Shown one piece after another: positions 1,811 to 21,245 of a DNA stretch of 64,000 nt (its first letter is position 1; every line of letters begins with the position of its first letter). The notes under the pieces were generated by a model, which saw nothing but the letters and a program-made list of their open reading frames with translations, did not search any database and was not told the DNA's origin. The stretch covers positions 35,489 through 99,488 of the IMG/VR virus record IMGVR_UViG_3300032296_002019; one strand, written 5' to 3'. Made by a program: the position numbers and the translations under genes. Source of the stretch: a virus.

Positions 1811-2722
1811 CTACTTCAACCCTAATTTAGATGTCAATATGGCATTGTCATCTTGAATAGTAGTGCAGCTTGTTGGTGTTGGTCCTACCCACCATAAAGG
1901 TAAGCAGCTACCTCCAATAGACCCCATAATAGGCCCTGAATTTGTTGAGTAATCGCAAGGCTTATAAGTGTACACAATATTGCAATTTGCATCCCATTGT
2001 GCCTGGTGGAATAGTCCAACCGTATGTCCTGATTCATGAGACACTGCTACTCTTATTCGGAGAGTATTAAATGACATAGTATTTGAAAACACGAAGCATT
2101 CAGGCGTTCCTCCGAACATAGAGCCAACATAAGCAATACCAGCCACACCAGGATATATTTCACTTGAAGTAGTAACAACTACTCTCATTCTTTTAGCTAC
2201 GCTTGCTGCTAAATAAACATTTTCATCTGTTGTAACAGTAATGTTATACTTAGCAAAATCTTTCTTAACACTATCGAGAATAGTTTGTATTTGTTCGGGT
2301 AATAATCCACTTGGTTGGCAATAGGTAGCAACACCATTATTCCAAGCACTACCAGCTGGTAGGTTATATCCATCAAAGTCAAGTAATAATACAGATGATA
2401 CAGAAGGTTCATTACCATATGGATATGGATCGCAAGCATCTCCTATACCATCTTTATCTGTATCCTTCTGATCAGAATTTCTAGTTCTAGGACAGTTGTC
2501 GTTTATATCCGGTACTCCGTCTTTATCGGAGTCTCTAAGCTTAGTAGATCCTCCTCCTGATCTAGCCATCTCGAATTCCTCAGCAGTTCTGAATGAATTA
2601 TTGCTTAATGGGCCAAAGTCACAAACTTCTGGTTTAGACGGTTTAGAAGGGGATATTTCTTTTGTGCAAGTTGCTACGAGTAAAGATGCAAATGCTAGGA
2701 TGAAAAGGATTTGTTTTTTCAT
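1811..2722 (-). CDS. Lipoprotein metzincin-type zinc protease with TSP3 repeats
   Basis: 303 residues. It starts with a lipoprotein signal (LLVATC, Cys19). Residues 64-98 carry two thrombospondin type 3 calcium repeats (DSDKDGVPDINDNCP and DTDKDGIGDACDP). About residues 228-238 hold HESGHTVGLFH, the HExxHxxGxxH zinc signature of metzincins, and a methionine turn follows (GPIMGS, about residue 265). Such enzymes cleave proteins outside the cytoplasm. TSP3 repeats are typical of secreted or surface Bacteroidota proteins, so the gene may be host-derived. It follows the tmRNA gene and precedes the small membrane cluster. A role in lysis, envelope degradation or superinfection control is possible. 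Confidence 0.85.
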   Translation of the reverse strand: MKKQILFILAFASLLVATCTKEISPSKPSKPEVCDFGPLSNNSFRTAEEFEMARSGGGSTKLRDSDKDGVPDINDNCPRTRNSDQKDTDKDGIGDACDPYPYGNEPSVSSVLLLDFDGYNLPAGSAWNNGVATYCQPSGLLPEQIQTILDSVKKDFAKYNITVTTDENVYLAASVAKRMRVVVTTSSEIYPGVAGIAYVGSMFGGTPECFVFSNTMSFNTLRIRVAVSHESGHTVGLFHQAQWDANCNIVYTYKPCDYSTNSGPIMGSIGGSCLPLWWVGPTPTSCTTIQDDNAILTSKLGLK

Positions 2723-2805: not shown

Positions 2806-2839
2806 CTTCGTTTTTCCTAACCTTAACCTACCTTTTGAG

Positions 2840-3349
2840 TGGAGATGGTGGGATTCGAACCCACGTCTCCGAAAGAGACAATAATACTAACGTCTCACAT
2901 GCTTAGTACTAATTAGTGTTCGTCTTACGTTAGCTCAACGAGTCATTTCGTAAGCTGGTACGATACTAATCTGCACCGTAAGAGGCCAACCGTATAGATC
3001 GGGGTCCACCACCTTGTTTTATGACTACAAGGAAAACTTTTGTTAGTGTTTCGCCCCCTATATCACTAACTAAGACGCTCAAAGTCGGCTTTGACCATTA
3101 AGGGAGCCCTCAATCCACAGTCCTTATTTAACGAGTCGATCGTGAATACTCAGAGTAGTTCTGTTCCTAGGTTACTCACCCGACGCGGACTAGGCTGCTA
3201 CAGCGTAGTCGGCACCAACGAAGTCCATAAGATCTTCGAAGGTCATTGTTGACATTTCGTCATTTACTGTTTGGTATCTTCTAAGGCAGTATACCCAAAT
3301 GCCTGCATGTAGTATTACCTCTGCATCCGGATCGATACCGGTCATCCCC
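2840..3349 (-). ncRNA. ssrA: tmRNA (ssrA) with unusually long tag
   Basis: The tRNA-like ends are clear. The 5' GGGGATG pairs with the 3' CATCTCC as a 7-bp acceptor stem, next to the T-arm GTGGGTTCGAATCCCAC. The 5' domain has the tmRNA-like GACCGGTATCGATCC and ACATGCAGG. The tag frame runs from about 3267 to TAG at 3190-3192. It starts (V)NDEMSTM, continues through TFEDLMDFVG and ends ADYAVAA, about 25 codons against roughly 10 in many bacteria. CCA is not encoded. The RNA rescues stalled ribosomes with SmpB, tagging nascent chains for proteolysis. At about 510 nt it is longer than the roughly 360-400 nt that is usual. The exact resume codon is inferred by comparison with the NDE start of the E. 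coli tag. Confidence 0.93.
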
Positions 3350-3352
3350 ATA

Positions 3353-3535
3353 TTACTTCAAACTAGAACTGTCCGGTGTGTTCTTACTGTCAGGATCCTC
3401 AGCAATTATAGAGGAACCTATAGTAGGCGTACCAGGTTCTTTTTTAGACTTCTTACCGCTAAAAGCGATATAAAGAACAGCAGCCCCTATAAGACAGAGA
3501 CCAACTACTAACAATACAAGATCTAATTTTTCCAT
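3353..3535 (-). CDS. Small single-pass membrane protein
   Basis: 60 residues. The N-terminal transmembrane helix (LVLLVVGLCLIGAAVLYIAF, residues 6-25) is followed by a basic patch (GKKSKKE) and a serine/proline-rich tail. The stop codon is only 3 nt before the tmRNA 5' end, and the start follows the terminator of the upstream structured RNA. It therefore sits between two RNA genes and is probably co-transcribed with the tmRNA. Function unknown. Confidence 0.6.
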   Translation of the reverse strand: MEKLDLVLLVVGLCLIGAAVLYIAFSGKKSKKEPGTPTIGSSIIAEDPDSKNTPDSSSLK

Positions 3536-3552: not shown

Positions 3553-3584
3553 AAAAAAATCTGGCGGGAATACTGATTACCCGC
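3553..3584 (-). terminator. Terminator of the structured RNA
   Basis: Sense strand GCGGG (3584-3580) pairs with CCCGC (3568-3564) and is followed shortly by seven Ts (3559-3553). This is a standard intrinsic terminator and fixes the RNA 3' end. Confidence 0.8.
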
Positions 3585-3860
3585 AACCCCTGGACGGACC
3601 CCTTTTCACCCATAGTCCACAAAGATGATCAGTCCTTGTGTTGAGACTAGCTGGATTGACTACCAGCAACGCCTGCGGAGATCAGTTGCAATTTCTTCGG
3701 CGTATCCAGAGCACTGTTGGGTTGCGCATTCTACCCTTAGTGATGGTGGTTTTAACTCATCCGTCTGTGATACCCAACTCAACAGCTTTTCAGCTATCTC
3801 GCCAGTGCTTTAGCAGCTCTCAACCGCTTATTCAGCCACAGTTTTTCTTAAAAGAACTTC
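3553..3860 (-). ncRNA. Unidentified structured RNA gene
   Basis: About 300 nt on the minus strand with no credible reading frame and visibly higher GC than the flanks. Pairings I can see (plus coordinates): 3804-3809 with 3710-3715; 3773-3778 with 3716-3721, directly stacked on the previous helix; 3800-3803 (GGCG) with 3699-3702 (CGCC), which crosses the first helix and makes a pseudoknot; 3819-3824 with 3640-3645 long range; a hairpin at 3784-3795 with a GAAA tetraloop; 3663-3667 with 3650-3654. It ends in an intrinsic terminator. It lacks the RNase P CR-I and CR-V motifs, the SRP loop, a tRNA-like domain and a group I core. The 5' end is approximate. I cannot assign it to a known class. Confidence 0.7.
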
Positions 3861-4211: not shown

Positions 4212-4566
4212 ATTTCTCCCAAATTTTATAGTACCAATCTAATATAAATTTAAGATCTTCAATACTAGTTTGACCTTTTAATGAGTCAATATATTGATCG
4301 CATTTATTTATTTCATTATTTAGATTTCTAATATTGTCGCTTTTTATTGTCTTTCTATCAAAGAAGTCCTTCTTTTCTTTTAACTTTTCTTTTAGTATAG
4401 GGATTTTTTTATCAGCCTCATTCTTTAAAATCTCCTCTTTAGATTTATTAACCATAAAAGCAGTGAGACCAGAAGCTCTTCCAGAAAATCTAAGCAGAGA
4501 ATCAGCTTTATCTTTTACTTTTAAAAGATCATCAGCCATTTTATCTATGCCTACTTTCCTTTTCAT
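4201..4566 (-). CDS. Hypothetical lysine-rich helical protein
   Basis: 121 residues, strongly basic in the middle (KEKLKEKKDFFDRKTIK), with coiled-coil-like spacing and a tyrosine/tryptophan-rich end (DWYYKIWEKYGF). It overlaps both neighbours by a few bases, which indicates translational coupling. No family recognised. Confidence 0.7.
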   Translation of the reverse strand: MKRKVGIDKMADDLLKVKDKADSLLRFSGRASGLTAFMVNKSKEEILKNEADKKIPILKEKLKEKKDFFDRKTIKSDNIRNLNNEINKCDQYIDSLKGQTSIEDLKFILDWYYKIWEKYGF

Positions 4567-19592: not shown

Positions 19593-21245
19593 TTACATGA
19601 ATTGACTATAATCTATATCTTCTTTTTTATCTTCTCCTACAAAGTAAACTGTAGATTCAGTAGTTAGGATAGTTCCTGCTACGCTTGCAGCATTCTCTAT
19701 GGCTGTCCTAGTAATTTTTGTAGGATCCAGAATACCGCTAACCAAGAAGTCTTCTACTTCACCATTCTTAGCATTATAACCAACCCACTCAGAATTTTCT
19801 TCTTCACTAGCTCTTTTATCTACCTTACCGAGAATCTCATAAACATTCTCTATACCAGCATTAGATAAAATCTTTTTGAATGGTGCAGACAATGCCTTCT
19901 CTACTATCTTAACTCCCAACTCTTGATCATCGTTATCACATTCAAGATATGCGTCTTTAACAAAATCCTTACAGTTAATTAAAGCCATACCACCACCAGG
20001 TACAATACCTTGATCTAAGGCTGCTTTAGTAGCGTGTAAAGCGTCATCAACTCTATCCTTCTTCTCCTTCATCTCTACTTCACTAAGGCCTCCTACATTG
20101 ATTATAGCCACCCCTCCTGTGAGTTTAGATAATCTCTCTTGTAATTTCTCTACTTCGAAGTTAGATTTAGCTATCTCAATCTGAGCTTTTAGATCAGACA
20201 ATCTTTGTTCTATCTTTTCTATATCTCCTTTTCCGTCAATGATAGTAGTGTCTTTACTTGTGATATTGGTAACACGGGCTTTTCCAAATGCAGCCTTAAA
20301 CTCATCAGCTTTCATTTTATCTACCTTGTGACCTTTAGTAGGAGATATGACAGTACCGCCAGTCAAGATAGCAATATCTTCTAGAATAGCTGTTCTTCTA
20401 TCTCCAAAGTCTGGTGCTTTTACCGCACATACTTTTATAGTATTGTTAGCTTTATTAACTACCAACAGTGCCAACGCTTCGTTCTCAATATCCTCTGCAA
20501 TGATCAATAGAGGCAAGTTTTCAGAATGTGCAGCTTGAAGCAGCGGAAGAACGTGTGCTGTAGTGCTGAGCCTTCCATCATATAAAAAGATAAGAGGCTT
20601 TTCAAAAACAGTTTGCATTGCTGTGTTGTCTGTTACAAAGTATGGGGACTTATACCCACGCTCAAACATCATACCCTCAACAACTTCTAAAGTAGTTTCC
20701 CCAGTCTTAGATTCTTCTATTGCCACTACACCGTCTGTTCCTACTTTATCTAAAGCAGTAGCAATCAAAGTACCAATCTCAGAATCATTGTTGGCTGATA
20801 TTGTTGCTACTTGTTTTATTTGATCTTCTGATGATATATCTTTTGATATTGACTTAAGACCTTCTACAACTTTAGCAACTCCTCTATCTATTCCCTTCTT
20901 TACTTCAACTGCATTGGAGCCTTGAGTAATTGCTTTCATTCCATCATTGATCATTACAGTTGCCAACAATGTAGAAGTGGTAGTACCGTCACCAGCTTTA
21001 TCGGCTGACTTTATAGATACCTGTTTTACCATTTGTGCGCCAATATCTTCTACAGGATCTTCTAATTTAGAGAAAGCCTTAGCCACTGTTACACCATCTT
21101 TAGTAACCTTAATTGAACCGTCAGCATCTCTGATTATAACATTTCTACCAGCAGGTCCAAGTGTGGATGATACACTATCATTAATCTTATTGATTCCGCC
21201 TAATAACTTTTTCTTTAACTCTGTTCCGAACTCTGTCTTTATCAT
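19593..21245 (-). CDS. groL: Phage chaperonin GroEL
   Basis: 550 residues, full length. It has the N-terminal ATP-site sequences (STLGPAGRNVII, then DGVTVAKAF and AGDGTTTSTLLA with the catalytic Asp) and the family signature near the C-terminus (ALDQGIVPGGGMALI). The usual GGM-rich tail is absent; the protein ends EDIDYSQFM. GroEL folds proteins with GroES in an ATP-driven cage. The co-factor gene lies 3 nt upstream, so the phage carries a complete chaperonin pair, presumably for its own capsid, tail or enzyme proteins. Confidence 0.97.
   Translation of the reverse strand: MIKTEFGTELKKKLLGGINKINDSVSSTLGPAGRNVIIRDADGSIKVTKDGVTVAKAFSKLEDPVEDIGAQMVKQVSIKSADKAGDGTTTSTLLATVMINDGMKAITQGSNAVEVKKGIDRGVAKVVEGLKSISKDISSEDQIKQVATISANNDSEIGTLIATALDKVGTDGVVAIEESKTGETTLEVVEGMMFERGYKSPYFVTDNTAMQTVFEKPLIFLYDGRLSTTAHVLPLLQAAHSENLPLLIIAEDIENEALALLVVNKANNTIKVCAVKAPDFGDRRTAILEDIAILTGGTVISPTKGHKVDKMKADEFKAAFGKARVTNITSKDTTIIDGKGDIEKIEQRLSDLKAQIEIAKSNFEVEKLQERLSKLTGGVAIINVGGLSEVEMKEKKDRVDDALHATKAALDQGIVPGGGMALINCKDFVKDAYLECDNDDQELGVKIVEKALSAPFKKILSNAGIENVYEILGKVDKRASEEENSEWVGYNAKNGEVEDFLVSGILDPTKITRTAIENAASVAGTILTTESTVYFVGEDKKEDIDYSQFM

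Follow-up and report, generated by a model that had tools for sequence, protein, structure and literature searches.

Across the 97,179 sequences of one database, tmRNA tags are most commonly 10 amino acids long (PMC11915505). Among Bacteroidota, tags (of the type GENNYALAA) measured 9-10 amino acids in 36 of 37 ARAGORN calls. Extended tags of about 25 residues or more occur in Mollicutes. These extended ssrA tags, in which the extra residues lie upstream of a short conserved end, are recognized through both end and extension by Lon, in cellular genomes lacking ClpXP (Gur and Sauer 2008; Ge and Karzai 2009; cited in PMC9382460 and PMC3985003). Phage-encoded tmRNAs are already known as well (PMC4131195; PMC7162821); some of the huge phages that carry them also encode SmpB, and the accessible part of that report describes no long tag (PMC7162821). 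A precedent for a long phage tag is the cultured mycobacteriophage ET08/Bixzunavirus, whose tmRNA, similar to the one described here, lies inside a tRNA cluster and encodes the 25-residue tag ATDTDATVTDAEIEAFFAEEAAALV; the present tmRNA is thus not the first of its sort. The ET08 tag is unrelated by alignment (10% identity), ends in ALV and belongs to a phage of an actinobacterial host. Searches of the open-licence literature yielded no description of the tag families reported below, of phage tmRNAs having long tags as a rule, or of tags being exchanged.

The locus analysed here, from a virus of aquatic bacteria, lies in a 64,000-base window (positions 35489-99488 of a virus record 99,488 bases long) and is a complete tmRNA gene of 513 nt, which bears out an earlier, sequence-only reading of a phage tmRNA of about 510 nt. 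Its features are as follows:

2837..3349, minus strand: tmRNA gene; Rfam RF00023, 59.6 bits against a cut-off of 47, model positions 1-374 matched in full; minimum free energy (MFE) below that of 100 of 100 shuffles (z-score -2.96)
3343..3349, minus strand: 5' strand of the acceptor stem, GGGGAUG; G3-U70 present in 65 of 71 family tmRNAs
3273..3303, minus strand: pseudoknot 1, H-type, GGCA/UGCC crossing GGUAU/AUACC, read from the sequence
3262..3267, minus strand: GUAAAU directly 5' of the resume codon, with the frame-setting U at -5 and A at -4
3190..3261, minus strand: tag reading frame, 23 codons, DEMSTMTFEDLMDFVGADYAVAA; resume codon GAC at 3261-3259, stop codon UAG at 3192-3190
3208..3252, minus strand: STMTFEDLMDFVGAD, the conserved insert module (residues 4-18 of the tag); found in over 100 viral contigs, with a tag-frame pN/pS of 0.23
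3193..3207, minus strand: C-terminal YAVAA of the tag, a ClpX-type end
2971..3013, minus strand: conserved tmRNA body block (GUGGUGGACCCCGAUCUAUACGG...), 97.7% identical to a related contig (L012)
2840..2864, minus strand: T-arm GUGGG UUCGAAU CCCAC, 3' strand of the acceptor stem CAUCUCC and discriminator A, from the Rfam match and the sequence

The alanine-type acceptor stem (GGGGAUG/CAUCUCC) with its G3-U70 wobble, the T-arm with its UUCGAAU loop and a D-loop-like 5' segment can all be read directly. Since the gene ends in ACUC and does not encode CCA, the latter must be added, and the mature RNA is probably 3349-2840 plus CCA. At 510-513 nt, the RNA is long yet inside the range of 71 family tmRNAs (337-573 nt, most of them 370-450 nt, the longest and shortest being uncertain end calls), and the surplus sits in the pseudoknot region rather than in the tag. 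By its landmarks this is a real tmRNA gene, whose RNA would be charged with alanine, bind SmpB and act in trans-translation. It resembles the tmRNAs of Bacteroidota hosts in its one-piece form, G3-U70, pseudoknot 1, a resume codon starting with G and an AA end, whereas the host tags lack the insert and are exceeded about 2.5-fold in length by the tag of the window.

The exact limits of the tag follow from the resume signal. Pseudoknot 1 is followed by AAACAGUAAAU and then by GAC (3261-3259), which lies 11 nt past the pseudoknot and is preceded by the equivalents of U85 and A86; in E. coli, the conserved A86 fixes the frame at a point four nt downstream of itself, and pseudoknot 1 and the resume codon are 12 nt apart (PMC2481249). 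Across 52 distinct relatives, A occupies -4 and -3 in all 52 and T occupies -5 in 49, with GAC (32 of 52) or GCA (14 of 52) as the main resume codons, and ARAGORN calls on relatives give the identical position. The sequence-only reading had begun the tag two codons too early, at the (V)N of 3267, for about 25 codons. Resumption at that GUA is ruled out by a TGA at the 'V' codon in three relatives (L038, L066, L075), by a spacing of 5 nt past pseudoknot 1 and by the -5/-4 signal; moreover, 'VN' is variable among relatives ('IT' in L012) and is not translated as tag. The insert TMTFEDLMDFVG and the ADYAVAA end that the same reading had named are both present in its frame. Thus, the resume codon does lie later than first supposed, but the tag does not shrink to a normal short one: 23 amino acids remain, encoded by 3261-3193, far more than the usual 10, with a YAVAA-type end, a hydrophobic AA C-terminus and a UAG stop.

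The insert recurs widely among viruses. Tags matching its degenerate pattern T[FY][ED]D.M.FVGA were found in at least 119 viral contigs, and each complete match goes on to a brief ending closed by a stop codon, in the manner of a tmRNA tag. When a DNA pattern from outside the tag was used instead, 21 viral contigs were retrieved, all with the same kind of tag (one, L035, being cut by the contig end). A nearly identical but slightly stricter insert pattern had no match among 84,980 genomes of bacteria and archaea, and a search of 395 genomes from the phylum of a Flavobacterium with the shorter motif FVGA[DE]YA gave two hits, neither of them called as tmRNA. Within the phage itself, six-frame translation gave the tmRNA as the sole match to the tag motif. 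Against named phages, blastn with the tmRNA region gave no match and neither did tblastn with the tag, a search in which a control with the ET08 tag was equally blank although ET08 encodes that tag, so that negatives with such short queries carry no information.

Long tags extend beyond this family. A tag-blind scan of a metagenomic virus collection gave 74 matches to the tmRNA 3' core, comprising 54 phage-type tags, 6 short tags (including ANDETFALAA and that of contig L283) and 14 unreadable cases, mostly cut at a contig end and some perhaps attachment-site remnants. Of the 60 readable viral tmRNAs, about 52 have a tag of at least 20 amino acids, a hand tally in which frames missed by ARAGORN were read by hand. 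These tags fall into several classes:

class A: T[FYW][ED]D.M.FVGA[DE]
class B: R[VI]AEGEAILAS[IL]F..VA[VI]AA
class B2: [IV]INMAFANAPVA[VL]AA
class C: VELS.YT.[ED]SLLAEL
class D: [DE][DE]LALVA
singleton: the tag of contig L289

Class A, to which the tag of the window belongs, measures 23-26 residues in full-length ARAGORN calls. Nearly all long viral tags end in A or AA; the family ends are AVAA, ALAA or AIAA, rarely AYAA, AVSA or ATFA. Classes A and C both start with ELSx[hydrophobic]T and could be related, and a core motif in common with class A is absent from the remaining classes. Two tags stand apart. In L283 (tmRNA 3' core 2436-2487, minus strand), AEYDYSFEDAVAEV, one of the six short tags, is similar to the core of class A (SFEDAVAEV against TFEDAMAFV) and has no AVAA end. 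In L315 (tmRNA 3' core 4384-4440, plus strand), a class A tag is shortened to DEMSTMTFDDLMAFVGADYE, again without AVAA, possibly through natural loss of the degradation end or through a sequencing error.

We give about even chances to an overall reading in which a functional tmRNA carries the insert as a second recognition element, for a protease or adaptor, ahead of a ClpX-type AVAA end. The tmRNA would belong to a contractile-tailed phage, probably of a Bacteroidota host, and would work with the SmpB and the alanyl-tRNA synthetase of that host, so that proteins from stalled ribosomes would receive alanine followed by DEMSTMTFEDLMDFVGADYAVAA. The terminal AVAA would retain an ordinary ClpX-type end; it is plausible by analogy with known ssrA tags that the protease signal is kept, and because AVAA and ALAA are the usual ends of this type, degradation remains the likeliest fate. 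The 15-residue insert would then be a sequence-specific segment, most likely a degron or adaptor-binding element, read by a host protease (Lon, FtsH or ClpX) or adaptor, and the clearance of products tagged during infection could follow a route, or reach a rate, that the 9-10-residue host tag does not provide, to the presumed benefit of the phage. By analogy, the Lon-directed tags of Mollicutes make an extra degron or adaptor element the most likely role. With 23 amino acids in the window and 23-28 in the phage classes, the tags are of Mollicute-type length (about 25 or more), although Mollicute tags have no class A module, and their NYAFA C-terminal motif is absent from the window tag, which ends in DYAVAA. 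As for partners, searches of the virus records, many of which are fragments, found SmpB in 0 of 45, Lon in 0 of 45 and SspB in 0 of 37, and ClpP in only 7 of 50; with SspB, Lon and SmpB absent from the records searched, the recognizer would be a host protein or a phage protein not yet known. A model of the insert as an amphipathic helix was dropped, its hydrophobic moment not exceeding that of shuffles in any class. The missing partner genes (weak evidence, in records that are often fragments), this negative hydrophobic moment, the lack of NYAFA and the lack of a core motif common to class A and the classes other than C argue against the two-element reading.

Comparison of the classes further suggests that tags are exchanged as cassettes. 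The tmRNA of the window and that of L303 are 90% identical across a 60-base stretch that ends at the resume codon, and the two tags belong to classes A and B2, respectively; likewise, pseudoknot 1 is common to L039, L271 and L306 (78-90% identity), and their tags are of classes A, B and C. Thus, either tags were swapped between scaffolds or scaffolds between tags, and the added residues are probably a label that is functional and can be exchanged. It is conceivable, as a tentative extension, that phage tmRNAs serve as carriers of interchangeable peptide 'address labels' that replace the generic degradation tag of the host, one of several long cassettes sending the products of stalled ribosomes to another protease or adaptor, or protecting them, during infection, and cassettes being swapped between scaffolds to match or evade the host. 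The swapping of unrelated classes on near-identical pseudoknot-1 scaffolds, together with the absence of the module from the bacterial genomes searched, also favors a rival account, namely that the tag re-routes proteins away from, or evades, a host adaptor, protease or defence sensor, with classes exchanged in an arms race. This account is rather unlikely: most tags keep the AVAA or ALAA end and are still expected to be degraded, no host factor was identified, and one class may merely mark one phage lineage or host group.

The substitution pattern of the insert supports the view that the residues themselves count. For the 15 insert codons in the tag-unbiased set (13 distinct tags), pN/pS is 0.23 when read in the tag frame but 2.6 and 2.3 when read in the two alternative frames, and differences at the three codon positions are 0.14, 0.06 and 0.41. 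For insert and ending together, the tag-frame value is 0.27. These values describe a pattern among related sequences rather than a tree-based test. The strong contrast between frames indicates that the peptide is what is kept; selection acts on the insert peptide, and such codon-level conservation in relatives excludes a chance tag frame. Collectively, conservation confined to the tag frame, recurrence across over 100 viral contigs and the variety of long cassettes carried by common scaffolds indicate that the extra residues matter as peptide. The same data weigh on the possibility that the insert is a spacer which merely lengthens an unstructured tail for protease engagement, its sequence being of little weight. 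The fairly constant length across unrelated classes (23-28 amino acids) would fit such a role, but a spacer sequence would drift, and the strong residue conservation alongside free third codon positions makes this quite improbable. It is very improbable, too, that the insert is kept as part of the tmRNA fold, or is a single sequence recently spread by mosaic recombination: conservation in close relatives is partly nucleotide identity (e.g., ATGTCAACAATGACCTTCGA) and the tmRNA bodies are mosaic, but the tag exists in 81 distinct nucleotide versions, and both the codon-position differences and the contrast between frames point to the peptide. Least probable of all is a decaying pseudogene, which the modest Rfam score, the failure of ARAGORN to call the window copy (most relatives were found), the unencoded CCA and the lack of a canonical boxA 5' of the gene might suggest, but which is contradicted by the intact acceptor stem, G3-U70, T-arm, pseudoknot 1, resume site and open tag frame, and by RF00023 scores of 53-105 bits in the relatives above the cut-off.

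The host is probably a Bacteroidota bacterium, as three lines of evidence support. Along its full length, the DNA polymerase shares 56% identity with that of Flavobacterium phage immuto, the nearest named phage by this protein, in which no tmRNA match was found. The GroEL of the phage shares about 50% identity with those of bacteria, the closest being mostly from Bacteroidota and relatives. Finally, a TAnnTTTG-like sequence, which we take to be a Bacteroidota-type promoter, lies just 5' of the gene in 22 of 71 family tmRNAs. The GroEL gene (window 19593-21245, minus strand) is an observation in its own right: a hand tally puts it in 22 of 43 class A records, 3 of 5 of class B2 and 1 of 21 others, an association with tag class that may reflect a proteostasis package or shared descent.

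Several other elements were noted around the tmRNA genes. Just upstream of a 60-aa membrane-type ORF (3353-3535) and of the tmRNA lies a manA-like structured RNA (window 3554-3856, minus strand), which scores 29.4 bits with RF01745 (below the cut-off of 55.2; E 2e-5) and has both conserved ends. Its 3' hairpin pattern occurs in 19 viral contigs, where in many cases a terminator or a tRNA, rather than an ORF, comes next; this would be more in keeping with a stand-alone RNA than with a cis-regulator. As a recurrent tmRNA partner it was rejected: it was not found in 13 relatives above the cut-off, and no tmRNA was found near 19 other manA-like sites. In 37 of 71 family tmRNAs (relatives such as L064, L022 and L084), against a background of 0.9%, a boxA-like antitermination element, AGTTCTTTAACATAT, precedes the gene at a fixed distance, its CTTT[AGT] starting 11-12 nt ahead of the RNA; the window copy has only AGTTCTAGTTTGAAG in its place. 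GOLLD giant RNAs (more than 300 bits) lie near tRNA clusters in related phages (L010:855-1264 and L047:2810-3221, both minus strand), in L047 about 2.6 kb from the tmRNA. The next gene downstream of the tmRNA (window 1811-2722, minus strand) encodes a probable exported protein of 303 aa with repeats like calcium-binding ones and a zinc-metalloprotease-like motif, SHESGHTVGLFHQ; relatives of this protein occur in 9 viral contigs.

tmRNA tags are usually treated as short, near-uniform degrons, whereas most readable phage tmRNAs in this collection carry long, peptide-conserved tags. Long tags of this kind could yield new degrons and reveal host recognition factors. The reason why phages encode tmRNA is poorly understood, and a conserved, transplantable peptide makes this question testable with reporters.
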